64,000 bases of DNA, from the NCBI GenBank assembly GCA_913063155.1, contig CAJXYU010000001.1:124001-188000 (forward strand). The letters are read 5' to 3'. Of this stretch, positions 3,483 through 38,092 are shown piece by piece. The position numbers and the translations under genes are program-made. Origin of the DNA: an uncultured Desulfovibrio sp. (GTDB taxonomy: Bacteria; Desulfobacterota; Desulfovibrionia; Desulfovibrionales; Desulfovibrionaceae). Within the stretch, counting starts at the first letter, position 1. Each line of letters starts with the position of its first letter. A model generated the notes under the pieces. The model was not told the DNA's origin, did no database searches, and was given only the letters and a program-made list of their open reading frames with translations.

Positions 3483-3581
3483 ATGGACATGGATAAATTC
3501 TTCAGCAGCAACACCTTTTCCTACCTGTATTTTTGGTACTGGTTTATTCGCGCCCGCGGGCACGGAAGGGTTGTGCTGTAG
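3483..3581 (+). CDS. Aromatic-rich leader peptide (candidate attenuator peptide) [32 protein letters not shown]
   Basis: Manual translation from ATG 3483 (alternative ATG 3489) to TAG 3579-3581; contains YLYFWYWF; precedes the terminator at 3611-3645 and the aromatic operon. No strong Shine-Dalgarno seen. Confidence 0.8.
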
Positions 3582-3624
3582 CCGAAAAAAGGTACAGAAA
3601 AAGAACTTCCAAGGGCCGCGGGCG
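3551..3624 (+). promoter_or_regulatory. Candidate antiterminator helix of the aromatic-operon attenuator
   Basis: CGCCCGCGG (3551-3559) is perfectly complementary to CCGCGGGCG (3616-3624), which overlaps the terminator 5' arm. Confidence 0.65.
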
Positions 3625-3645
3625 AAAAAGCCGGCGGCCCTTTTT
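3611..3645 (+). terminator. Leader intrinsic terminator (attenuator) upstream of the aromatic supraoperon
   Basis: AAGGGCCGC (3611-3619) / GCGGCCCTT (3634-3642), inner GGC/GCC, then TTTTT; no plus-strand full-length gene lies upstream. Confidence 0.85.
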
Positions 3646-3703: not shown

Positions 3704-4501
3704 ATGCATATCGGCAAAGCCATCAGGTTGGAGCGCATCTTCGACCGCAACACGGGAAGAACCATCATCGTTCCCATGGACCACGGCGTCACTGTCGGGC
3801 CCATCGACGGCCTCGTGGACATGAAGGAAGCCGTGGGCCGAGTGGTCGAGGGCGGCGCAAACGCCGTTGTCGAACACAAGGGCCTGGTTCGTTGCGGTCA
3901 TCGCGCCGAAGGCAAGGACATCGGCCTCATTGTTCACCTGTCAGCCTCCACCTCTCTGTCACCGTTCCCCAACGCAAAATGTCTGGTCGCATCCGTGGAG
4001 GACGCCATCCGCCTGGGCGCTGACGCCATCAGCATTCACTGCAACCTGGGGGCCGAAACCGAAGCCGACATGCTTCGCGATTTCGGCAAGGTCGCCACGA
4101 ACGCCGCCAACTGGGGCATACCGCTGATGGCCATGGTTTACGCGCGCGGCCCCAAAATCAAGAATGAATACGACCCGGCCGTAGTGGCGCATTGCGCCCG
4201 AGTGGGCACCGAGCTGGGTGCGGACGTGGTCAAGGTCTGCTACACCGGCGACCCGGAAACCTTCAGCCGCGTCACCGACGCCTGCTGCATACCTGTGGTC
4301 ATCGCGGGCGGCCCCAAACTTGACAGCACCGAAGACTTCCTGCGAATGGTGCATGATTCCATCGAAGCTGGCGGCGCAGGCCTTTCCGTCGGCCGCAACG
4401 TCTTCCAGCACAAGGACCCCACCCGTCTCGTGGAGGCGCTGAACATGGTCGTCCACCAGGACGCGGAAGTGAAGGACGCACTCGCCCACGTCGGCGAATA
4501 A
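3704..4501 (+). CDS. 2-amino-3,7-dideoxy-D-threo-hept-6-ulosonate synthase (class I aldolase family, archaeal-type aromatic pathway)
   Basis: [34 protein letters not shown]...; ATG 3704 with GGAG SD; followed by DHQ synthase II. Confidence 0.88.
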
Positions 4502-4519
4502 CCCAACGGAAAGATCGAC

Positions 4520-5503
4520 ATGAAACGTATCGTCTTCAAGGCCATCCCCTACGACAAACACCTCGTCACCCTTGCGCTCGAATCCGGTGTGGACGCGGTC
4601 ATGGTGGAGCCCGACCAGGTGGAGGGCGTCAAATCCCTGAGCCAGATCGAAGTCATCACCCCCGACGTCATGCCCAGTGTGGAGCTCTCCCAAAAGGCCG
4701 ACGAGGAAACCGCGGTCAAGCGCATACAGGCTGGGGAAAACGTGGTCCTGGCCAAGGGCTGGGAAATCATCCCCGTGGAAAACATCCTGGCCCAGGTTCA
4801 GACTCTGGCGCTGGAAGCGGAAAGCCTGGACCGCGCAGTACTGGCCGCAGGAGTACTGGAACGCGGGGCCGACACCATCGTGGTCCTGCCCGAGGGCGCA
4901 TCCGACCTCAAGCAAATAGTCAAGGAACTCAAACTCTCCCAGGGAACCATGCAGCTCTCCGAAGCAACCGTCACGGAAGTCCGTCCCGCGGGACTCGGCC
5001 ATAGAGTCTGCGTGGACACCACGAGCGTGCTCAAGAAAGGCCAGGGAATGCTGATCGGCAACTCCTCGGCCTTTACTTTTTTGGTACACGCGGAAACCGA
5101 ATCCAACCCATACGTGGCCGCCCGCCCGTTCCGGGTCAATGCAGGAGCGGTGCACGCCTATTGCTCCATGCCCGGCGACAGGACCAGCTACCTCGAGGAA
5201 CTGGCCTCGGGTGACGATGTGCTCATCGTGGGCGCGGACGGCGAAACCTCCCTGGCCACCGTGGGCCGCTGCAAGGTGGAGATCCGCCCCATGCTGCTCA
5301 TCAAGGCCGAGGTGAAAACCAAGGAAGGCGTCGCCCAAGGCCAGGTATTCCTGCAGAACGCGGAAACCATCCGCGTGGTCTCGGCCAAAGGCGAACCGGT
5401 CAGCGTGGTCACCCTCAAGGTGGGCGACAAGATCCTGGTGAAGACCGATCAGGCAGGCCGCCATTTCGGCATGCGCATCACCGAAGACATCAAAGAAGGC
5501 TAA
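4520..5503 (+). CDS. 3-dehydroquinate synthase II (archaeal AroB' type)
   Basis: Family-typical protein with LGHRVCVDTTSVLKKGQGMLIGNSS, PFRVNAGAVHAY and GEPVSVVTLKVGDKIL; operon context. Confidence 0.88.
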   Translation: MKRIVFKAIPYDKHLVTLALESGVDAVMVEPDQVEGVKSLSQIEVITPDVMPSVELSQKADEETAVKRIQAGENVVLAKGWEIIPVENILAQVQTLALEAESLDRAVLAAGVLERGADTIVVLPEGASDLKQIVKELKLSQGTMQLSEATVTEVRPAGLGHRVCVDTTSVLKKGQGMLIGNSSAFTFLVHAETESNPYVAARPFRVNAGAVHAYCSMPGDRTSYLEELASGDDVLIVGADGETSLATVGRCKVEIRPMLLIKAEVKTKEGVAQGQVFLQNAETIRVVSAKGEPVSVVTLKVGDKILVKTDQAGRHFGMRITEDIKEG

Positions 5504-5507
5504 GGCC

Positions 5508-6608
5508 ATGGCAGAGAAGAACGACTCCCCGCTCAAGGACATGCGCGTCCGCATCGACCAACTGGACAAAAAGATCGTCGCATTGCTCAACCAACGCGCC
5601 GACGTCAGTCTCGAAGTGGGACGCTACAAGGCCAAACGCGACGAGCCCATCTACATGCCGTTCCGAGAGCGCGAGGTCATGAACAAGATCGCCGAGCGCA
5701 ACCCCGGCCCCATGCCGGAAAAGCACCTGCGCGCCATCTACAAGGAGATAATGTCCTCCTCGCGCAGGCTGCAACGCCCGGAACGCACCGTCTATCTCGG
5801 TCCGGAAGGCACCTTCTCCTACTTCGCGGCAGTGGAACACATGGGGCATTCCCAGCATCTGACTCCCAAGGCCAACTTCGAGGAAATCTTTCGTGCGGTG
5901 GCCATCGAGGGCGCGGAACTGGGCGTCATTCCCCTGGAAAACTCCCTGGAGGGCACCGTAGGACAGGTGGTCGACCTGTTCATGGCCTACCCGGTCTACA
6001 TCCAAGGCGAAATATACAACCGCATCAGCCACTGCCTCATGAGCAAGGTGGACAGCATCGACAAGGTGGAAGCCGTCTACTCCCACCCCCAACCCCTGGA
6101 ACAGTGCCGGGAATGGCTGCACGCCAAGCTGCGCGATTGCCCGCGACTGCCCACCGCTTCCACGGCCACCGCCGCCAAGGTGGCCCAGGAACAGCCCGGC
6201 GCCGCGGTTGTGGGCAACGCCAGGCTGGCAGACATGTACGACCTGAACATCCTGGCCCGGAACATCGAGGATTCCCCGGACAACTGGACCCGGTTCCTGG
6301 TCATCGCCCCTTCGCCCTGCCGCGAGGACGAGCGCGACAAGACCACCATCCTGTTCACCACCCCGGACAGCCCGGGTGCGCTGGCGGGAGTGCTGAACAC
6401 CCTGGCGGGCAAGGGCATCAACATGACCAAGCTGGAGTCCCGGCCGATGCGCAACGAAAAATGGAAGTACGTCTTTTTCACGGACCTGGAATGCGACCTT
6501 TCCAAGGCCGAATACGAATCAATGCTGAACAGGCTGCGCAAGCAGTGCCATACCCTGCGCGTTCTCGGGAGCTACCCTTCCGGACGGCAGGAGAATGGAG
6601 AGAGATAG
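5508..6608 (+). CDS. pheA: Bifunctional chorismate mutase/prephenate dehydratase
   Basis: N-terminal chorismate mutase (RVRIDQLDKKIVALLNQRA), then VYLGPEGTFSYFAA, NSLEGTVGQVVDL and C-terminal ACT (ESRPMRNEKWKYVFFTDLE). Confidence 0.95.
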   Translation: MAEKNDSPLKDMRVRIDQLDKKIVALLNQRADVSLEVGRYKAKRDEPIYMPFREREVMNKIAERNPGPMPEKHLRAIYKEIMSSSRRLQRPERTVYLGPEGTFSYFAAVEHMGHSQHLTPKANFEEIFRAVAIEGAELGVIPLENSLEGTVGQVVDLFMAYPVYIQGEIYNRISHCLMSKVDSIDKVEAVYSHPQPLEQCREWLHAKLRDCPRLPTASTATAAKVAQEQPGAAVVGNARLADMYDLNILARNIEDSPDNWTRFLVIAPSPCREDERDKTTILFTTPDSPGALAGVLNTLAGKGINMTKLESRPMRNEKWKYVFFTDLECDLSKAEYESMLNRLRKQCHTLRVLGSYPSGRQENGER

Positions 6609-6612
6609 GACA

Positions 6613-7974
6613 ATGAGCAACGACCCGAACGGAATCATCACGGTGCAGGCCCCGGCCTCCAAATCCATGTCGCACCGCACCCTCATCGCGGCTTCCCTGG
6701 CCAATGGAGAATCCGTCGTCTCCGGCCTGCTGGATTCGGACGATATCACCCGTACCCGAGGCTGCCTGGCCGCCTGCGGTGCAAAATTCGAGGAAACCGA
6801 CGACGGCGCGCTGCGCGTCACCGGCGCCGAGAACGGCCCGCGCGGAGCCAACCCGGACGGCAGGGACCGCGACGCCGAACCGCATGAAATGTATATGCAC
6901 GAGTCCGGCACCACCTGCCGCCTCATGACCGCCGTGGCCGCAGCGGGCAAGGGCAGCTTCCGCATCCATGGCGCACCGCGCATGCACGAACGCCCCATGA
7001 AGGAGCTGTGCGACGCACTCTCCCGCCTGGGCGTACACTTCACCTTCGAAGGCAAGGAAGGCTTCCTGCCGTTTGTCATGGAGACCAAGGGATTCCGGAA
7101 AAAGACCGTGGACATCACCCTGGAGGAATCCAGCCAGTATCTATCCGGCCTGCTCCTGGGCGCGCCCCTGTCGGAAAAGCCCACTCTGGTCACCGTGTCC
7201 GGCAAAAAAGCCGTATCCTGGCCGTACGTGGCCCTGACCCTCCAGGTCATGGAGGACTTCAAGGCCGGCTTCAATGTGGAGATCCTCAAGGAAGGCCGCT
7301 GGACCGAGGTTCCCTGGAGATCCATCCGCCGGGTGGAACCCGGTGAACTGCGCTTCCACGTGGAGCCCGGCAGCTACGAGCCCACCAACTACCGTGTGGA
7401 AGGCGACTGGAGCAACTCCTCCTATTTCCTGGCTGCCGGCGCCGTAGGCAAGAAGCCGGTAAGGGTCATGGGTATTCGCCCGGATTCCCTGCAGGGAGAC
7501 CGTGCCATCATCGACATCCTGGCCGAGATGGGAGCGGGCCTGAACGTGACCCCGGACAAGGGCATCACCATTTACCCCCGAAAACTGCGGGGCGTGAACG
7601 TGGACATGGGCAAATGTCCGGACTTGGTGCCGACCGTGGCCGTGGTGGCCGCCCACGCGGTAAGCCCCACCACCATCCGCAATGTCGCGCACCTGCGGAT
7701 CAAGGAATGCGACCGGCTCCAGGCCTGCGCCGAGCAGATAACCAAGACCGGCTGCAAGGTGGAGCAGTTCGACGACGGCATCAAAATCACTCCGGCTCCG
7801 CTGCCTTCGGGCACGAGCATCGATTTCGAAACCTACGGCGACCACCGCGTCCCCATGAGCATGTCCATCTTCCAGCTCGCGGGCATCACTCCGGTGTTCG
7901 ACAACCCCAAATGCGTCGGAAAATCCTTCCCCGAATTCTTCGACGAATGGAACAAGGTAGTGAAAGGCCAGTAA
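6613..7974 (+). CDS. aroA: 3-phosphoshikimate 1-carboxyvinyltransferase
   Basis: APASKSMSHRTLIAASLANGES, ESGTTCRLMTA, GDHRVPMSMSIFQL; start ATG 6613. Confidence 0.93.
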   Translation: MSNDPNGIITVQAPASKSMSHRTLIAASLANGESVVSGLLDSDDITRTRGCLAACGAKFEETDDGALRVTGAENGPRGANPDGRDRDAEPHEMYMHESGTTCRLMTAVAAAGKGSFRIHGAPRMHERPMKELCDALSRLGVHFTFEGKEGFLPFVMETKGFRKKTVDITLEESSQYLSGLLLGAPLSEKPTLVTVSGKKAVSWPYVALTLQVMEDFKAGFNVEILKEGRWTEVPWRSIRRVEPGELRFHVEPGSYEPTNYRVEGDWSNSSYFLAAGAVGKKPVRVMGIRPDSLQGDRAIIDILAEMGAGLNVTPDKGITIYPRKLRGVNVDMGKCPDLVPTVAVVAAHAVSPTTIRNVAHLRIKECDRLQACAEQITKTGCKVEQFDDGIKITPAPLPSGTSIDFETYGDHRVPMSMSIFQLAGITPVFDNPKCVGKSFPEFFDEWNKVVKGQ

Positions 7975-7975
7975 G

Positions 7976-8764
7976 ATGAGCGACCCCGAGTTTAAGAGCA
8001 TAGCCATCGTGGGCGCACGCGGCCAGATGGGCGGCATGTTCGCAGAGCGTTTCGGCGAACTGGGCTGCGACATCCATCCGCTGGACCGCCCGTTCGATGA
8101 ACAGGCGGCGCACAGGGCGGTTTCGTCCTGCGACCTCCTGCTGCTCTGCGTACCGGTCACGGCCATGGATCAGGTGCTCGGCCAGACCACCCCGCACATG
8201 CCCGAAGGCGCTGTCCTTGCCGACGTAGGGTCGGTGAAGGAACTGCCCCTGCGGGCCATGCTCAGGGCCTACGACGGCCCGGTGGTGGGCACGCACCCCC
8301 TGTTCGGGCCGGTCATTCCCGAGGGGTTCATCCCACGTGTAGCCGTAGTTCCGGGCCGCGAATCCGACACCGGGGCCGCGAACCGGGTGGCGCGAATTTT
8401 CGACGCTGCCGGGTTCACGTCGTTCCTGGCCTCCGCCGAAGAGCACGACAAGGCCATGGCCTTCATCCAGGGTCTCAATTTCACAACCACCGCGGCTTTC
8501 CTGGCCGCAGCCGGGCGCATGCCGGGCATCGAAAATTACGTCACCCCCTCCTTCAACCGCAGGCTGGAAGCGGCCAGAAAGATGCTGACCCAGGACAGCG
8601 AGCTGTTCGGCACCATCGCCGACGCCAACCCCTACCTGCAGGAAACCGCACGCCAGTTCATGACCCTGTTCAGCCTCGCCGCAGGCGGCGAGTTGGACCT
8701 TCTGGCATCTCTGGCACAGTGGTGGTGGCGCAACGACGAACAACAGGAGGGGTGCGTCCGATAG
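7976..8764 (+). CDS. tyrA: Prephenate dehydrogenase
   Basis: IAIVGARGQMGGMFAERF, LADVGSVKELPL, VVGTHPLFGP motifs; ends ...AQWWWRNDEQQEGCVR*. Confidence 0.92.
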   Translation: MSDPEFKSIAIVGARGQMGGMFAERFGELGCDIHPLDRPFDEQAAHRAVSSCDLLLLCVPVTAMDQVLGQTTPHMPEGAVLADVGSVKELPLRAMLRAYDGPVVGTHPLFGPVIPEGFIPRVAVVPGRESDTGAANRVARIFDAAGFTSFLASAEEHDKAMAFIQGLNFTTTAAFLAAAGRMPGIENYVTPSFNRRLEAARKMLTQDSELFGTIADANPYLQETARQFMTLFSLAAGGELDLLASLAQWWWRNDEQQEGCVR

Positions 8765-8801
8765 CCACGAAAACAGGAAAAGGACACCAAGGCCGCACCC
8801 C
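8720..8801 (+). promoter_or_regulatory. Candidate internal trp attenuator: Trp-Trp-Trp codons in the tyrA 3' end plus antiterminator
   Basis: TGGTGGTGG codons 8720-8728; GGGGTGCGTCC (8749-8759) pairs 10/11 with GGCCGCACCCC (8791-8801), the terminator 5' arm; GGCGCA (8727-8732) can pair with TGCGTC (8753-8758). Confidence 0.75.
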
Positions 8802-8821
8802 CCAAGGGATGCGGCCTTTTT
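8789..8821 (+). terminator. Intrinsic terminator between tyrA and trpE (attenuator)
   Basis: AAGGCCGCA (8789-8797) / TGCGGCCTT (8810-8818) perfect 9-bp stem with T-tract at 8817-8821. Confidence 0.88.
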
Positions 8822-8847
8822 ATTTCATAACATGCCAACGGAGAAAA

Positions 8848-10290
8848 ATGATGGAACCAATCAAGATCACACAGTACGGGAAATGGCTGCCCGCGGACGT
8901 ACAGACGCCCATCAGCCTGTACCTGGGCCTGGTGGGCGATCGGCCCGGCATCCTGCTGGAATCCGCCGAGGTGGATGGGCGGCTCGGCCGATACAGCCTC
9001 ATTGCCTGGGACTTCAGACTCACGCTCTACCCCGACAAGGGCAAACTGGTCGTAGACGTGAAGGACAAACGTTTCGAGCCGCTCAAGGAACTGGCGGGCA
9101 TGGATTATCTGGAAGGCCTGCGCCGGGCCAACCGACTCATCCACATTGAGCAGCAGGCGGACGGCGGGCACGACGGCCTGCCTGGTCTGACCCGGGGCAT
9201 GTACGGCTATTTCGGCTACGGCACGGGCGGCATGTTCGAACCCAAGCTGATGGACGCCCTGCCCCCGGAAAAGGCCGAAGCATGCATGGCTCTGCCCGGC
9301 CAGCTGGTGCTCTTCGACCACCTGCGGCACTCCTGCTGCTACCTGAGCCTGGACGAAGGAGCCACGCCGCGCCCGGCAGCAACCGAGTGGGGCATGGATC
9401 TGGCCGCTCCCGAAGCGGGCGAACCCACTATCCATCCGGGCAAGGAAGAATACATGGCCTCCGTGGAAAAGGCCAAGGAGCTCATCGCTGACGGCGAGTG
9501 CATCCAGGTGGTTCTTTCCACCCGTTTCTCGGTGCCCGTACCGGACGACCCGTTCCGCATCTATCGCAGACTACGGCAGGCCAATCCATCGCCGTTCATG
9601 TTCTTCATGCGCTTCCCCAAGTGTGTGCAGTCCGGCATGGTTCTGCTGGGTTCCTCGCCCGAGATGATGGTCCGCTGCGACAAGGGTGCGTTGGAAGTCC
9701 GGCCCATCGCCGGGACCCGGCCACGCGGCGAATCCGAAAAGCAGGACCTGGAGCTGGCCCAGGAACTGCTGGCCGATCCCAAGGAGCGGGCCGAGCACGT
9801 CATGCTCGTGGACCTGGGACGCAACGATCTGGGACGTATCGCCACCCCGGGCAGCGTGGAGGTGGGCAAGTTCATGAACGTGGAACGCTTCTCCCATGTC
9901 ATGCACTTGACCTCCTACGTGGAAGGCGTCTTGCGGGACAACATGGACGCCATAGACGTGCTCCAATCCACTTTCCCGGCGGGCACGCTTTCGGGCGCGC
10001 CCAAGGTACGGGCCATGGAGATCATCGCCGAGTTGGAACCGCAGGATCGCGGTCCCTACGGCGGATGCATCGGCTGGATGGGAACCGGTAACGAATCCGT
10101 GAGTCTGGATACGGGCATCACCATACGCAGCATGTGGATACGCAACGGCCTGTGCAACTGGCAGGCAGGGGCCGGAATCGTCTACGACTCCGACCCGGAA
10201 AAGGAATGGCAGGAATGCAACAACAAGGCCCGGGTGCTGCTCGAGGTCATAACCGGCAAGGGAGCTGGCGATGTTTTTACTCATAGATAA
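8848..10290 (+). CDS. trpE: Anthranilate synthase component I
   Basis: MMEPIKITQYGKWLPADVQTPISLYLGLVGDRPGILLESAE...; GSSPEMMVR, PIAGTRPRG, LSGAPKVRAMEII; start 8848 with GGAG SD. Confidence 0.95.
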   Translation: MMEPIKITQYGKWLPADVQTPISLYLGLVGDRPGILLESAEVDGRLGRYSLIAWDFRLTLYPDKGKLVVDVKDKRFEPLKELAGMDYLEGLRRANRLIHIEQQADGGHDGLPGLTRGMYGYFGYGTGGMFEPKLMDALPPEKAEACMALPGQLVLFDHLRHSCCYLSLDEGATPRPAATEWGMDLAAPEAGEPTIHPGKEEYMASVEKAKELIADGECIQVVLSTRFSVPVPDDPFRIYRRLRQANPSPFMFFMRFPKCVQSGMVLLGSSPEMMVRCDKGALEVRPIAGTRPRGESEKQDLELAQELLADPKERAEHVMLVDLGRNDLGRIATPGSVEVGKFMNVERFSHVMHLTSYVEGVLRDNMDAIDVLQSTFPAGTLSGAPKVRAMEIIAELEPQDRGPYGGCIGWMGTGNESVSLDTGITIRSMWIRNGLCNWQAGAGIVYDSDPEKEWQECNNKARVLLEVITGKGAGDVFTHR

Positions 10291-10843
10291 TTACGATTCC
10301 TTCACCTTCAATCTGGTGCAGGCCTTTCAACAGCTCGGGGCCGACCCCGTGGTCATCCGCAACGATCGCGAAGAGCTGCTGGAAATGGCGGGCAATGGCA
10401 AGCTGGAGCGGGTCTGCATCTCTCCCGGCCCCAGTCGTCCGGAAAACGCGGGTTTCTGCCTGGAGTTCCTGAAGCGGCTGCCCAAGGTGGTGCCCGTGCT
10501 GGGCGTCTGCCTCGGCCATCAGTGCCTGGGGCATCACGCCGGAGCCGAGGTCGTGCGCAACCGTCGCATCATGCACGGCAAGACCTCCAAGGTATTCCAC
10601 GACAACTCGGGCGTGTTCAAGGGACTGCCCGACGGATTTGAGGTCTGCCGCTACCACTCTCTGGTGGTGCTGGCCAAGCAGGCGCTGGACAAGCTGACCA
10701 TCACTGCCACGGCGGACCGCGACGAAGTCATGGGCATCACCTACAAGGACCGGCCGTGGTACGGGGTCCAGTTCCACCCGGAATCCATACTGACCCCCAA
10801 GGGACCGCAACTGCTGCAAAACTTCCTGGAAATGGAAGCATAG
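10271..10843 (+). CDS. trpG: Anthranilate synthase component II (glutamine amidotransferase)
   Basis: LLIDNYDSFTFNLVQ, ISPGPSRPENAG, VLGVCLGHQ, VQFHPES; overlaps trpE end by 20 nt. Confidence 0.95.
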   Translation: MFLLIDNYDSFTFNLVQAFQQLGADPVVIRNDREELLEMAGNGKLERVCISPGPSRPENAGFCLEFLKRLPKVVPVLGVCLGHQCLGHHAGAEVVRNRRIMHGKTSKVFHDNSGVFKGLPDGFEVCRYHSLVVLAKQALDKLTITATADRDEVMGITYKDRPWYGVQFHPESILTPKGPQLLQNFLEMEA

Positions 10844-10853
10844 GAGACATGTC

Positions 10854-11867
10854 ATGACCACCGTACCTGAAGTATTGGAACTGCTGGCCCAGGGACAACC
10901 TCTGGACGACGTGCAGGCGGACATGATGTTCGGCCTGCTCATGGATGGAAAACTGGAACCGGCCAGCGCCGGAGCCTTTCTCATGGGACTGCGGGCCAAG
11001 GGCGAGGATTCCACGGACCTGGCCGCCGGAGTGCGCGCCGGGCTGCAACACGCCAAGGCCATCCCCGGCTACACGGACGGCAGCGTGGACCTGCCGGTCA
11101 TCGACACCTGCGGAACGGGCGGCGACGGCTCGCTCAGCTTCAACTGCTCCACGGCCGTGGCTCTGTTCCTGGCCGACATGGGCTACAAGGTGGCCAAGCA
11201 CGGCAACCGCTCTGTATCTTCGTCCTGCGGCAGCGCCGATGTGCTCGAGGCCCTGGGCGTGCCTCTCATGCAGGCCCCCGAGGATGCGGCCGACTCCCTT
11301 TCCAGGACCAACTTCGCCTTCCTGTTCGCGCCCAACTACCACCCGGCCTTCAAGCACATCATGCCCGTGCGCCAGGCCTTGGGCATCCGTACCCTGTTCA
11401 ACTTCATGGGGCCGCTGCTGAACCCGGCCCGCCCCACCCACCAGTTGCTGGGAGTGGGCGATCCGTCCAAGCTCCAGATCATGGGCGAAACCCTGCTGCT
11501 CACCGGCATCGAGCGGGCCATGGTTATCTCCGGTGCGGGGGGCTTCGACGAGGTGACCACCTTCGGTCCGGCCCGGGGCTATCTGGTTCATGACGGGATC
11601 ATGGAAAAGACCACCGTCAATCCCGACCGGCTCGGCTTCAAGACCCACAGCGCGGAAGACGTGCGGGTTTCCGGCAAGGACGAAGCCGTGGCGGTCATGA
11701 GGGACATCCTGGCCGGCAAGGGGCCGGAGGCCATGATGGACATGGTGGCCGTGAACCTTGCGGTCTGCATCCACCTTGTGGAACAAGAGTCCATGCGCGA
11801 CTGCGCGGACAAGGCGAAAAACGCCGTCAAACAAGGACTCACAAAGGGGTTACCCAATGCTGGATAA
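10854..11867 (+). CDS. trpD: Anthranilate phosphoribosyltransferase
   Basis: DTCGTGGDGSLSFNCSTAVA, KHGNRSVSSSCGSADVLEALG, GPLLNPARPTHQLLGV. Confidence 0.95.
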   Translation: MTTVPEVLELLAQGQPLDDVQADMMFGLLMDGKLEPASAGAFLMGLRAKGEDSTDLAAGVRAGLQHAKAIPGYTDGSVDLPVIDTCGTGGDGSLSFNCSTAVALFLADMGYKVAKHGNRSVSSSCGSADVLEALGVPLMQAPEDAADSLSRTNFAFLFAPNYHPAFKHIMPVRQALGIRTLFNFMGPLLNPARPTHQLLGVGDPSKLQIMGETLLLTGIERAMVISGAGGFDEVTTFGPARGYLVHDGIMEKTTVNPDRLGFKTHSAEDVRVSGKDEAVAVMRDILAGKGPEAMMDMVAVNLAVCIHLVEQESMRDCADKAKNAVKQGLTKGLPNAG

Positions 11868-12627
11868 GTTCAGGAAGGCCAAGCAGCCCGAAATAGAAGC
11901 GCTGCGCGAGGAATTCATGGCCGGACAAATTCCCGCGAAATACGAGGGCGAGCGGCCCTCCTTTACCGGGGCCATCCGAGCCAAGGGACCAGGGGCGGTC
12001 ATCGCGGAATTCAAACCCGCCTCTCCCTCCAAGGGAATTCTGCGCGAACACGCCAATCCCCTGGACTATGCCCAGGCCTATGCGGAAAACGGAGCCGCGG
12101 CCATGAGTGTGCTCACGGAAAGCCAATACTTCCAAGGGCACCCCAACTACCTGTTCATGTGCGCCCAGTACGGCCTGCCCCTGCTGCGCAAGGACTTCAT
12201 CCTGGACCCGCTGCAGGTGGCCATGACCGCTTCCAGCCCTGCCTCGGCCATGCTGCTCATCGCCCGCATGTTCGGTTCCACCCACGAACTTCGCCAGCTT
12301 ATCCAACTGGCCGAAATGGCCGGACTGGAGCCGGTGGTGGAGATATTCGACGAGCAGGACCTGGAGTCCGCGCGCGAGGCCGGAGCCACCATCATCCAGG
12401 TCAACAACCGGGACCTGAACACGCTGACCACCACCCTGGACGTGTCGCGCAGGCTCATGGACAAGCAGAACGACGAACTGTGGATCAGCGCCAGCGGGGT
12501 GGAATGCAGGGAACAGGTCCTGGAGATGGCCGACCTCGCCTTCGACGCAGTACTCGTGGGCACCAGCCTTATGCTGGCCGACGATCCGGGAGCGATGCTG
12601 GCCGAACTGACGGGAGCGGGACAATGA
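11857..12627 (+). CDS. trpC: Indole-3-glycerol phosphate synthase
   Basis: VIAEFKPASPSKGILRE, LLRKDFILDPLQV, VNNRDLNT; start ATG 11857 overlaps the trpD end. Confidence 0.95.
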   Translation: MLDKFRKAKQPEIEALREEFMAGQIPAKYEGERPSFTGAIRAKGPGAVIAEFKPASPSKGILREHANPLDYAQAYAENGAAAMSVLTESQYFQGHPNYLFMCAQYGLPLLRKDFILDPLQVAMTASSPASAMLLIARMFGSTHELRQLIQLAEMAGLEPVVEIFDEQDLESAREAGATIIQVNNRDLNTLTTTLDVSRRLMDKQNDELWISASGVECREQVLEMADLAFDAVLVGTSLMLADDPGAMLAELTGAGQ

Positions 12628-13247
12628 AACGGCCAAAGGTCAAGGTCTGCGGCATGACCCGCCAGGAAGACGTCAGTCTGTGCAGCGGCCTCGGCGCTCA
12701 CTTCCTGGGGTTCATCTTCCATGAAGGCAGCCCGCGCAACGTACGGCGCGACTTCGCGGCCGGGGCCGATGCAGGCTCCGCTGCCAAGGTGGGCGTGTTC
12801 GTACGCCAGACCGCGGACGAGGTCAAAGAGATCATCCGCGAGTGCGGCCTGGACTATGCTCAACTGCACGGCGGCCAGGACGAGGAGTTCTGCGACGCCG
12901 TGGGGCCGGACCGGGTCATCAAGGTGCTCTGGCCGGAAAAGTACGACTCCCCGGAAGCGCTGCAGGCCGACATCGTCCGCTTCGCCCCTCACTGCTCCCA
13001 TCTGCTCTTTGATACGGGCAAAAGCGGCGGCGGACATGGCCGGGCCATGAACCTGGATATATTCCAGTCCATTGCAATACCCAAACCCTGGTTTCTTGCC
13101 GGAGGATTGTGCGCCGAGAACACCCATGCGGCGTTGCAGGTTGAACCGGATGTGCTGGACCTCAACTCCGGCGTGGAAGCGGCCCCTGGCATCAAGGATG
13201 AAAACAAACTACGGGCAGTGATGCAAAAGCTGTCCGAAGCATCATAG
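12624..13247 (+). CDS. trpF: Phosphoribosylanthranilate isomerase
   Basis: KVKVCGMTRQEDVSLCSGLGAHFLGFIF..., FLAGGLCAENTHAAL, DLNSGVEAAPGIKDENKL; ATG 12624 overlaps the trpC stop. Confidence 0.93.
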   Translation: MKRPKVKVCGMTRQEDVSLCSGLGAHFLGFIFHEGSPRNVRRDFAAGADAGSAAKVGVFVRQTADEVKEIIRECGLDYAQLHGGQDEEFCDAVGPDRVIKVLWPEKYDSPEALQADIVRFAPHCSHLLFDTGKSGGGHGRAMNLDIFQSIAIPKPWFLAGGLCAENTHAALQVEPDVLDLNSGVEAAPGIKDENKLRAVMQKLSEAS

Positions 13248-13257
13248 GAATCAAGTT

Positions 13258-14421
13258 ATGAAAAAAGGTTACTTCGGCGACTTCGGCGGCCAGTTCGTTC
13301 CGGAACTGCTCATGCCGCCGCTTCTGGAGCTGGAAGAGGCCATGAACACCATCATGACCACCAGGGAATTCCAGCGGGAATTCGCGGACCTGCTCCGCGA
13401 CTGCGTGGGCAGGCCCTCGGCCCTGACCCATTGTCCCAACCTCTCCAAGGACACGGGCGTGGACCTCTGGCTCAAACGCGAGGACCTGAACCACACGGGG
13501 GCGCACAAGATCAACAACACTCTGGGGCAAGCCCTGCTGACCAAGAGGATGGGCAAAAAGGTTCTGCTCACAGAGACCGGTGCGGGCATGAACGGCGTGG
13601 CCACGGCCACGGCCGCGGCCATGATGGACCTGGAGTGCGTCGTGTACATGGGGGCGGTGGACGTGGAGCGCCAAGCCCTCAACGTACGGCGCATGGAACT
13701 TCTCGGAGCGCGCGTTATCCCCGTGGAATCCGGCACCAAGACCCTGAAGGACGCCATTAACGCGGCGCTGCGCTTCTGGATCGCCGAACAGGGAAACACG
13801 CACTATTGCTTCGGCACGGCAGCAGGACCGCACCCCTTCCCGCTGCTGGTACGCGAGTTCCAGGCCATCGTGGGCCGGGAGGCCCGCCAGCAGTTTCAGG
13901 ACAAGACCGGAAAACTTCCGGACGTGGTCTGCGCCTGCGTGGGCGGCGGTTCCAATGCAATAGGCGCGTTCCACGCTTTTGTGCCGGATGAATCCGTCCG
14001 GCTGGTGGGTGTCGAGGCCGGAGGAACCGGCGAACCCGGCTGCTACAACTCCGCCCCGCTGAATCTGGGCTCCGAGGGAGTGCTGCACGGCATGAAATCC
14101 ATGCTGCTCCAAACCGAAGAAGGACAGATTCTCCCTTCACATTCGGTTTCCGCCGGTCTCGACTACCCCGGTGTAGGCCCGGAACATTCAGCCTTGCATG
14201 CCAGTGGCCGGGCCGAATACGACGTCATCAACGATACCGAGGCCTTGAATGCCTTTCAGGTCCTGTCTCGGCGTGAAGGCATCATCCCGGCCCTGGAAAG
14301 CTCCCACGCCGTGGCCTGGGTGCTGGAGAACAAGGACAAGCTGCAGGGCAAGAGCGTTCTCGTGAACCTGTCGGGACGCGGAGACAAGGATATGGACATC
14401 GTCGAACGAGTCCTCGGGTAA
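13258..14421 (+). CDS. trpB: Tryptophan synthase beta chain
   Basis: GDFGGQFVPELLMP, LKREDLNHTGAHKINNTLGQ, ETGAGMNGVATATAA, CVGGGSNAIGAF. Confidence 0.96.
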   Translation: MKKGYFGDFGGQFVPELLMPPLLELEEAMNTIMTTREFQREFADLLRDCVGRPSALTHCPNLSKDTGVDLWLKREDLNHTGAHKINNTLGQALLTKRMGKKVLLTETGAGMNGVATATAAAMMDLECVVYMGAVDVERQALNVRRMELLGARVIPVESGTKTLKDAINAALRFWIAEQGNTHYCFGTAAGPHPFPLLVREFQAIVGREARQQFQDKTGKLPDVVCACVGGGSNAIGAFHAFVPDESVRLVGVEAGGTGEPGCYNSAPLNLGSEGVLHGMKSMLLQTEEGQILPSHSVSAGLDYPGVGPEHSALHASGRAEYDVINDTEALNAFQVLSRREGIIPALESSHAVAWVLENKDKLQGKSVLVNLSGRGDKDMDIVERVLG

Positions 14422-14431
14422 GGAGCGAACA

Positions 14432-15196
14432 ATGACATCTCCCATGAAAGAAAAGATACAAGCGGCAAAGGCACAGGGGAAAACCGCGGTGATCCCCTAC
14501 CTCCCGGCAGGCTATCCGACCCGTGAACAGTTCTGGAAGGAGCTGGAAATGCTTGATGCGGCAGGCGCTGCAATCATCGAGATCGGCATGCCCTTTTCCG
14601 ATCCCGTGGCGGACGGCCCGGTGGTGGAGGCGGCCTGCCTCCAGGTGTTGGAGGACGGCATCAATCTGAAATGGATATTCGACGGGCTCAAGGAACGCAA
14701 AGGACAGCTCGATGCGGGCCTGCTGCTCATGGGCTACCTCAACCCCATTCTGCAGTACGGTGTGGACAAATTCGCCGAGGACTGCGAGGCAGCCGGAGTC
14801 TCGGGCCTGATCATCGCGGACATGCCCATTGACGAGGCCGATTTCGTCATCAAGGCCATGAAGCCGCGCGGCGTGGAGTTCATCCCCCTGGTGGGCCTGA
14901 ACACCTCCAAGGAACGCATGGCCCTGTACGCCAGGGAGGCCGAAGGATTCGTGTACGTGGTTTCGGTACTCGGCACCACGGGCCAGCGCGACAGCCTGCC
15001 CACCGAAGTCAAGGCCAAGCTCGCCGAGGTCCGGGAAGTCTTCGACATTCCGGCGGCCCTCGGCTTCGGCCTCAAAACCCCGAGTCAACTTGAGCCCTTC
15101 GGCGACCTGGTGGATGCCGCGGTCATCGGCTCGTCCCTCATCAGCCACATAAAGAACGGCGGGACATCAGAGTCCTACATGAAGGCCTGGACCTAG
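14432..15196 (+). CDS. trpA: Tryptophan synthase alpha chain
   Basis: VIPYLPAGYPT, IEIGMPFSDPVADGPVV, ALGFGLKTPSQL. Confidence 0.94.
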   Translation: MTSPMKEKIQAAKAQGKTAVIPYLPAGYPTREQFWKELEMLDAAGAAIIEIGMPFSDPVADGPVVEAACLQVLEDGINLKWIFDGLKERKGQLDAGLLLMGYLNPILQYGVDKFAEDCEAAGVSGLIIADMPIDEADFVIKAMKPRGVEFIPLVGLNTSKERMALYAREAEGFVYVVSVLGTTGQRDSLPTEVKAKLAEVREVFDIPAALGFGLKTPSQLEPFGDLVDAAVIGSSLISHIKNGGTSESYMKAWT

Positions 15197-17822: not shown

Positions 17823-17852
17823 AAAGGCCGCCGGATTTCTCCGGCGGCCTTT
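17823..17852. terminator. Symmetric hairpin (terminator of the tmc operon)
   Basis: AAAGGCCGCCGGA / TCCGGCGGCCTTT, 13-bp perfect stem. Confidence 0.75.
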
Positions 17853-36373: not shown

Positions 36374-38092
36374 ATGGATTGGATTCACCGTTTCCGGGCC
36401 GGGGCTCTCCCGGCCCGGGGCAGCGGTCTCGGGCTGTTTCTCTTTGTTCTGGCTTCGGTCTGCTGTCTATCGCTCCTGCCCATCGGCCGCCTGCTTCTGG
36501 AAAGCATCGCTCCGCACGGCAACTTCAGCCTCGATACCCTCAGGGACGTACTGAATTCCAAAAGCACCTGGCGCGCTTTGGGGCATTCCCTGGAAACCGG
36601 CGTCCTCGCTACCCTGCTCGCAACAGCCATGGGCGCGTGCATGGGCGTCCTTGTCGCGCTCACGGACATGCGCTTCAAAGGCGCGCTGACTTTCTGCTTC
36701 ATGATGCCCATGATGATCCCGCCACAGATCACCGCCTTGTCATGGCTCCAGCTTTTCGGCCCATCCAGCGTGCTCCTGAACATGCTCGACCTGGCTCCCG
36801 CGCCCGGTTCGCCGCACCCCATGTATTCCCGGCGGGGCATCATCCTCCTGCTCGGCATCCAACAGGCCCCGCTGGTATTCCTTTCGCTCAAGGCCGGGCT
36901 GGCCGCCATGCCGCGTGAGATGGTAGAGGCCGCCAGAACCTGCGGGGCGGGGCACTGGAGGGTTCTGCACACCATTGTCCTGCCGCTCATGACTCCGTCC
37001 CTGACTGCCGGCATGGCCCTCGCCTTCGTCTCCTGCATCGGCAACTTCGGCATTCCGGCCATGCTCGGCATTCCGGCCGGGTACACCGTGCTCACCACCC
37101 TCATCTACCAACGACTGGCCGATTTCGGCCCGGAAATGATCTCCCAGGTCGCCGGACTCTCCATGCTCATCGGCCTCATGGCTCTTGCGGGCGTCCTGCT
37201 GCAATCGTGGGCACTGAACAGCCGCGACTACAGGCTCGTCGGGTCGCCCTCCGCGCCGCTCAACTACCGACTGGGAGCCCTCAGACCGGTAGTGGAAAGC
37301 TGTTGCTGGCTGGTGATCATCCTGATACTGATTGTTCCGGCATGCGCCCTGGTCTGCTCCTCGCTCGTGCCCGCCTTCGGAGTAAAGCTCGGCTGGGAGA
37401 CCGCAACACCGGGCAACTACGCCAACGTCCTGCTGTCCCACGAGGCCACGACGCGGGCGTTTGCGAACAGCTTTTTTCTGGCCGGTTCAGCGGCAGCGAT
37501 CCTGGCCTGCATCGGCATTCCCCTCGGCTATTTCCTGGTCTGGCGAAAAAATCCGCTTTTCAAGCTGCTCAATCCGCTGGCCGAGTTGCCCTATGCCCTG
37601 CCGGGAGTGGTGCTGAGCATCGGGTGCATTCTGCTCTTCCTCAAACCTCTCCCACTTGTGGGCGTCAGCATCTACGGCACGGTCTGGATCATTCTCGCGG
37701 CCTATCTGGCGCGCTTCCTGGCCATGGTTCTACGCCCGGTGGCCAGTGGCTATTCACAGACCGACCAGGCGCTGGAGGAGGCAGGACAGATGTGCGGGGC
37801 GGGCTTTTTCGAACGCATGCGCAGTATCGTCATCCCGCTGATTTTCCCGGCGGCGGCCGCAGGGGCGTTGTTCGTCTTTCTCGCGGCCTTCAACGAACTC
37901 ACCGTTTCCATGCTCCTGTGGTCATCCGGGGCGGAAACAGTGGGCGTGGTCATCTTCAACTTGGACGAGAGTGGCAACGCGGCCCTGGCCTCGGCTGTTT
38001 CCGTGCTCGTCATAGCCGCCGTTCTGCTGCTCATGGGCTTTGTTTCCCTGGTAGGCAGAAAGGCGCCTCAAGGAGTCGTTCCGTGGCAATAA
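36374..38092 (+). CDS. ABC transporter permease with two fused permease domains (FbpB/PhnV-like)
   Basis: Two EAA-like loops: EAARTCGAGHWRVLHTIVLPLMTP and EEAGQMCGAGFFERMRSIVIPLIFP; multi-TM. Confidence 0.88.
   Translation: MDWIHRFRAGALPARGSGLGLFLFVLASVCCLSLLPIGRLLLESIAPHGNFSLDTLRDVLNSKSTWRALGHSLETGVLATLLATAMGACMGVLVALTDMRFKGALTFCFMMPMMIPPQITALSWLQLFGPSSVLLNMLDLAPAPGSPHPMYSRRGIILLLGIQQAPLVFLSLKAGLAAMPREMVEAARTCGAGHWRVLHTIVLPLMTPSLTAGMALAFVSCIGNFGIPAMLGIPAGYTVLTTLIYQRLADFGPEMISQVAGLSMLIGLMALAGVLLQSWALNSRDYRLVGSPSAPLNYRLGALRPVVESCCWLVIILILIVPACALVCSSLVPAFGVKLGWETATPGNYANVLLSHEATTRAFANSFFLAGSAAAILACIGIPLGYFLVWRKNPLFKLLNPLAELPYALPGVVLSIGCILLFLKPLPLVGVSIYGTVWIILAAYLARFLAMVLRPVASGYSQTDQALEEAGQMCGAGFFERMRSIVIPLIFPAAAAGALFVFLAAFNELTVSMLLWSSGAETVGVVIFNLDESGNAALASAVSVLVIAAVLLLMGFVSLVGRKAPQGVVPWQ

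Follow-up and report, generated by a model that had tools for sequence, protein, structure and literature searches.

The window analyzed here, a stretch of 64,000 nucleotides (64 kb) from a Pseudodesulfovibrio-like species, contains an aro-tyrA-trp operon whose genes, identified from open reading frames and NCBIfam matches, all run in one direction (Table 1). Their order is aroA', 3-dehydroquinate synthase II, pheA, aroA, tyrA and trpEGDCFBA. NCBIfam describes the aroA' product as 2-amino-3,7-dideoxy-D-threo-hept-6-ulosonate synthase, and a second aroA'-like gene, 69% identical, lies elsewhere in the genome (G000:C4:246860-247639). The operon passes from common aromatic genes to Trp-only genes at the tyrA-trpE junction, where the trpE ATG at 8848 stands 83 nt 3' of the tyrA stop. 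A homologue search of the source genome returned no TrpR, and this repressor was ruled out as the operon's regulator because its gene is absent.

Table 1. Features of the aro-tyrA-trp operon and of its two candidate attenuators (positions within the window)
Feature	Position	Strand	Basis
Head leader before aroA', rich in Phe, Tyr and Trp	3483..3581	+	Sequence; similar leaders in most relatives
Putative head attenuator: R2 (3551-3559) pairs with R3 (3616-3624); terminator hairpin 3611-3642	3551..3642	+	Sequence pairing
aroA', aroB' (3-dehydroquinate synthase II), pheA, aroA; aromatic block 5' of the internal switch	3704..7974	+	NCBIfam
tyrA, prephenate dehydrogenase; C-terminus is the proposed leader peptide	7976..8764	+	ORF; NCBIfam; fold match to TyrA structures 2pv7 and 3ggg
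Three consecutive Trp codons TGGTGGTGG, residues 249-251, proposed sensing codons	8720..8728	+	Sequence; conservation of W249 and W250
R2, putative antiterminator 5' strand GGGGTGCGTCC, in last tyrA codons (predicted disordered protein tail)	8749..8759	+	Begins 20 nt past last Trp codon
tyrA stop codon TAG; a ribosome sitting here would cover R2	8762..8764	+	Sequence
R3, strand common to antiterminator (with R2) and terminator (with R4)	8789..8801	+	Both helices conserved, with two-sided changes
R4, terminator right arm and T-rich tract	8806..8826	+	Sequence; hairpin energy
trpE, first gene of the putatively controlled trpEGDCFBA block	8848..10290	+	NCBIfam TIGR00564
trpG, trpD, trpC, trpF, trpB, trpA; remainder of that block	10271..15196	+	NCBIfam for trpG, trpD, trpB and trpA; ORF inspection for trpC and trpF

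A first-pass annotation of this DNA had proposed that the end of tyrA doubles as the Trp leader peptide of an internal attenuator before trpE, and its coordinates for the Trp codons, the stop, the hairpin arms, R2 and R3 were all correct when the sequence was rechecked. TyrA ends in ...QWWWRNDEQQEGCVR before the stop (over a longer stretch, ...AQWWWRNDEQQEGCVR). The gap behind it holds a hairpin whose arms, AAGGCCGCA (8789-8797) and TGCGGCCTT (8810-8818), are extended by three inner CCC/GGG pairs and followed by a T-rich tail at 8817-8826. The alternative pairing of R2, GGGGTGCGTCC (8749-8759), with GGCCGCACCCC (8791-8801) was reproduced at 10 of 11 positions. Computed folding energies are -18.4 kcal/mol for the R2:R3 (2:3) helix alone, -21.2 kcal/mol for the R3:R4 (3:4) terminator hairpin and -21.5 kcal/mol for the best fold of the terminator segment. 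Since the score of the R2:R3 helix was equalled in two of 100 shufflings of the 64 nt upstream, the match is only moderately unlikely in the window and, taken alone, suggestive; the weight comes from relatives. Both strands of the window together carry 36 hairpin-plus-T sites, four of which, the tyrA-trpE site included, match or exceed its R2:R3 pairing. At two other hairpin-plus-T sites, 36411-36436 (+) and 17826-17849 (-), the upstream complement of the left arm beats all 100 shuffles; these may be chance occurrences or further switches. Searches of the window with Rfam families (Trp_leader, T-box and others) gave no match at the gathering score.

We surveyed 166 TyrA loci of the order, with linkage to trpE established from a TrpE query. 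At 95 of them, in 27 genera and 6 families, a Trp run precedes a GC-rich hairpin ending in a T tract, and a segment ahead of the hairpin is complementary to its left arm. This set includes four loci (L005, L013, L066, L084) whose hairpins are missed by the automatic terminator rule and plain by eye, and leaves out L079, whose hairpin had passed by chance. The placement of R2 differs between groups: in the closest relatives of the window it falls within the last tyrA codons, in most of the window's genus it is GGGGTGCGGC, directly at or past the stop, and in other families it is GGGGAGGA-like and lies over C-terminal Gly codons. The element sequences vary widely and extend to AT-rich genomes (L134, for instance, has GGGAGGATG / CACATCCTCCC / AGGATGTG). 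The mean R2:R3 helix score is 25.4 over 91 loci against 16.6 +- 0.3 in shuffles (shuffle maximum 17.8). The switch is missing at 16 loci where tyrA overlaps or nearly abuts trpE (g4, g7, g10, g20, g33, g34, g35, g39) and at 43 loci where no trpE follows tyrA, such as those of Desulfovibrio g3, several of these having flhB next; a further 12 linked tyrA-trpE loci with a gap have no recognizable switch. The R2:R3 helix of g13 is short, at 7-8 pairs, and we counted it against the attenuator reading.

What stays constant across the order is the distance from the Trp codons to R2. Over 91 loci the gap between the last Trp codon and the start of R2 has a median of 17 nt and a range of 11-23 nt, with an sd of 2.5 (1.5 for genus medians), and in 200 trials with shuffled upstream sequence the sd of this distance was never below 18.4. 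The stop codon varies in position: across switch loci it follows the last Trp codon by 6 to 42 nt, R2 ranges from -29 to +8 relative to it (sd 8.9, 91 loci), and the Trp-to-stop and Trp-to-R2 distances do not correlate on genus medians (r = 0.02). A ribosome's front edge reaches about 12 nt beyond the first base of the codon in its A site. Given this and the observed spacing, R2 would start just past the front of a ribosome stalled for Trp, whether it is placed inside tyrA or after its stop, and further movement by a few codons would, judging from the spacing, cover it. This is the geometry expected of an attenuator in which a stalled ribosome frees R2 and an advancing one covers it. At a few loci (e.g. 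L024, L053), R2 lies partly beyond the footprint of a ribosome at the stop.

Comparing TyrA tails and tyrA-trpE spacers among relatives had been put forward in the first-pass annotation as a check, and the outcome favors its proposal: the Trp run is kept at the 95 loci, and the 2:3 and 3:4 helices covary. In an alignment of 27 sequences from the window's genus and two neighbors (A2), pairing stands at 95.6% for the 2:3 helix and 95.5% for the 3:4 helix, and two-sided changes occur somewhere in the alignment at 5 of 10 and 6 of 12 pairs, respectively; slid controls reach only 36-48% pairing. R2, R3 and R4 can change together, as in GGGTGCGGC/GCCGCACCC/GGGTGCGGC, in GGGTACGGC/GCCGTACCC/GGGTACGGC (L007) and in GGGACGCGGC/GCCGCGTCCC/GGGTCGCGGC (g2). 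The mutually exclusive helices that define an attenuator are both conserved, with covariation. Exchanging R2 for that of another genus weakens the mean R2:R3 duplex from -24.5 to -18.7 kcal/mol. Folds computed with a stalled ribosome form the 2:3 helix in 91 of 91 cases, a result that is partly circular because R2 had been chosen as the strand most complementary to R3.

The first-pass annotation had also described the four regions of a classical E. coli-type attenuator. The 2:3 and 3:4 helices are borne out by covariation, and region 1 is not. Its proposed GGCGCA/TGCGTC pairing is possible on paper, with six pairs of which one is G-U, and one pair fails in 24 of the 27 aligned sequences; complementarity of R2 to the 36 nt upstream has a mean z of -0.06 over 91 loci. 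Across the same 91 loci R2 shows no excess complementarity upstream, nor downstream apart from R3. An alternative R2:R2' hairpin 3' of R2, seen in many same-genus sequences, was rejected, being 70% paired with no covariation and no excess over shuffles. The lack of a conserved 1:2 helix makes this a three-segment switch, without the four-region leader of classical systems, in which the ribosome itself would do the masking of R2. Two hallmarks of a TrpL-type attenuator are missing at these loci: the 1:2 sequestering or pause helix and the short dedicated leader ORF, since the WWW codons lie inside the 262-codon tyrA frame. That no sequestering helix or pause hairpin could be demonstrated counts against the attenuator reading, in which the leading ribosome would have to be in step with the polymerase after ~790 nt of gene.

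At the protein level, the predicted TyrA model (mean pLDDT 92.5) places the WWW triplet (249-251) at the close of the last folded helix. The tail beyond it that carries R2 (residues 252-262) is modelled with low confidence and is probably disordered, which would leave it free to encode RNA. The three Trp residues behave differently. W250, within the folded helix, is Trp in all 166 TyrA loci. W249 is present at 95 of 95 loci with the switch versus 37 of 71 without (27 of 27 versus 11 of 26 genera; Fisher p about 1e-6, shared ancestry ignored), and its replacement by A, R, G, K, S, T and others is seen solely where no switch was found. W251 is kept at 94 of the 95 switch loci; with W249 and W250 in all 95, the run of regulatory codons expected of an attenuator is present. 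On a TyrA tree (FastTree, tail removed), in which many forks are weak, the state without switch and without W249 takes 12 changes, at least 7 of them forced by well-supported branches, and no loss of W249 falls within a switch-bearing lineage. No WWW tail was found among the TyrA sequences examined from outside the order. Within it, the triplet is kept in Desulfovibrio g3 and others with no trpE behind, and in g10, where tyrA overlaps trpE, so the Trp residues are partly a protein feature. We conclude that one Trp is structural, whereas the full triplet is tied to the switch yet can outlast it.

These observations bear on the first alternative, in which a plain intergenic terminator does no more than lower trp expression, WWW belongs to the structure of TyrA, and the complementarity of R2 is incidental. 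The first-pass annotation had named WWW tails in TyrA proteins not followed by trpE as the sign of a purely protein role, and this was partly what we found: the universal W250 and the WWW of Desulfovibrio loci without trpE agree with such a role, and the two shuffles in 100 that equal the R2:R3 helix of the window agree with an incidental complement. None of this explains the RNA geometry. The complementarity and covariation of R2 and R3 over 27 genera, the position of R2, fixed relative to the Trp codons and not to the stop, and the loss of W249 only where the switch is absent make a plain terminator very improbable.

Together, the fixed spacing from Trp codons to R2, the covarying helices and the restriction of W249 loss to loci without the switch lend strong support, at the level of sequence, to the idea that the end of tyrA acts as a Trp leader. 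We are confident that a Trp-sensing, ribosome-mediated transcription attenuator lies between the common aromatic and trp blocks, with the C-terminus of full-length TyrA as its leader peptide. In the cell, we infer, it would operate as follows. With charged tRNA-Trp in short supply, the ribosome closest to the polymerase would stall on the WWW codons of tyrA with its front edge just short of R2, leaving R2 to pair with R3 once R3 is made; the R2:R3 helix would then block the R3:R4 terminator and let the polymerase enter trpEGDCFBA. When Trp is plentiful, the ribosome would reach the tyrA stop and cover R2, R3:R4 would form, and transcription would stop before trpE, with tyrA and the upstream genes still made.

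The same terminator could be governed by general ribosome-polymerase coupling at a gene end, as in E. coli rph-pyrE, with the Trp codons incidental. A full-length gene as leader, as in that system (PMC11148124), and the missing 1:2 helix would suit such a sensor; R2 is set from the Trp codons to within a few nt, W249 is found at every one of the 95 switch loci and the controlled genes make only tryptophan, and on these grounds we give coupling as the sensed signal very little credence. Least probable of all is a Trp-responsive RNA-binding protein or riboswitch acting on the terminator: alternative helices by themselves name no sensor, but the window lacks an Rfam match, the genome lacks a TrpR homologue, and what is constant across the order is a ribosome-sized distance to the Trp codons.

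The Trp attenuator between tyrA and trpE has a companion at the head of the operon (Table 1). Of 29 relatives examined, 24 have aromatic-rich runs ahead of aroA', and 17 or 18 of these runs sit in short leader-like ORFs (e.g. ...SLYFFWYFYFSRACGLRGLL before the stop); the head attenuator (3483-3642) is probably the counterpart of the putative one described in D. vulgaris ahead of aroA' by Song et al. 2005 (PMC1173090). The supraoperon thus appears to be controlled twice: at its head by a general aromatic switch and again, after the common block ends with tyrA and before the Trp-only genes begin, by a switch for Trp alone. As the head leader carries Phe, Tyr and Trp codons, a switch for Trp alone before the genes that serve Trp alone makes regulatory sense.

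A separate element occupies the trp gap in part of the window's genus. Between the attenuator terminator and trpE, loci L007, L009, L010, L012, L014, L015, L017-L023 and L026-L031 hold a conserved ORF of 26 codons, preceded by a good ribosome-binding site and interrupted in frame by a TGA at codon 5. It occurs in 21 same-genus genomes, in every case with the TGA. Its consensus is MxxT-TGA-KxxENRKKxKGWxVIPRP(Y/L)(H/N) followed by a stop; it is absent from the window and from elsewhere in the class sample. Single-base codon differences among all pairs of 19 copies comprise 1250 synonymous and 315 non-synonymous changes, an excess by which the ORF looks coding on both sides of the TGA. It has no SECIS or other Rfam match, and could possibly be a recoded micropeptide (with Sec or another residue) in the trp control region. 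Past the terminator, L005, L008, L013, L016 and L032 hold what appear to be decayed copies, with only the MxxT-TGA-K start left.

If the tyrA-end attenuator works as proposed, the leading ribosome still follows RNA polymerase closely after ~790 nt of tyrA, the C-terminus of the enzyme is dual-coded as protein and sensor, and one operon has two nested switches, responding to all aromatic amino acids at the head and to Trp alone before trpE. It is likely, with somewhat less assurance than for the switch itself, that ribosome-mediated amino-acid attenuation operates throughout the order with the 3' end of a complete enzyme gene in place of a leader ORF, and with neither a 1:2 pause hairpin nor a synchronized start. 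A biosynthetic enzyme would then bear in its own C-terminus the sensing codons that elsewhere belong to a separate tiny leader gene. Across the order the protein tail and the stop have shifted while the RNA switch stayed at a ribosome-sized distance from the Trp codons, and this spacing offers a natural ruler of the ribosome footprint as well as a test of whether transcription-translation coupling lasts until a complete gene has been read. The arrangement further suggests that scans restricted to short upstream ORFs overlook attenuators at gene ends.

Ribosome-mediated attenuation is classical, textbook attenuators use throw-away leader peptides, and attenuation at a gene end is known from rph-pyrE. 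We found no report of a tyrA-end attenuator, or of a Trp attenuator with the C-terminus of an upstream enzyme as leader, in the open-access literature searched. Like E. coli TrpL (Rfam Trp_leader), the tyrA switch has consecutive Trp codons, competing 2:3 and 3:4 helices, a stop near R2, and control over trpE and the later genes. It differs in that its leader is the end of a gene for a 262-residue enzyme inside the operon, whereas TrpL is a short ORF at the operon start, and in having no conserved 1:2 helix, Rfam match or synchronized start of ribosome and polymerase. Elf and Ehrenberg treat attenuation as a race with such a synchronized start (PMC1183508), a premise that cannot hold in the same way at tyrA, which makes the case informative. 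At the E. coli rph-pyrE intercistronic attenuator, a terminator before the next gene is governed by how the last part of a full-length upstream gene is translated (PMC11148124); control through gene-end translation is shared with tyrA, but there it serves pyrimidine control via ribosome-polymerase coupling, with no run of amino-acid codons. In Chlamydia, the WWW motif of YtgCR is likewise a Trp triplet within a full-length protein gene that senses Trp limitation and affects transcription (PMC7755916). Stalling there stops ytgR transcription, and trpBA is derepressed in trans through that repressor (PMC7755916), unlike the antiterminator/terminator pair in cis before the trp genes described here. 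A related arrangement occurs in another lineage of the phylum: L221 (genome G459, reverse strand) has a leader, MMIFVSGRNSWWWRGLREGFVRRR ending in a stop, and a terminator hairpin between tyrA and trpE. The WWW tail of TyrA may stem from substitutions around the old Trp, or from a separate leader ORF of this kind that became fused to tyrA. In L221 a small ORF of its own encodes the WWW leader and TyrA lacks the tail, the ordinary form of the arrangement that the order carries inside its enzyme gene.
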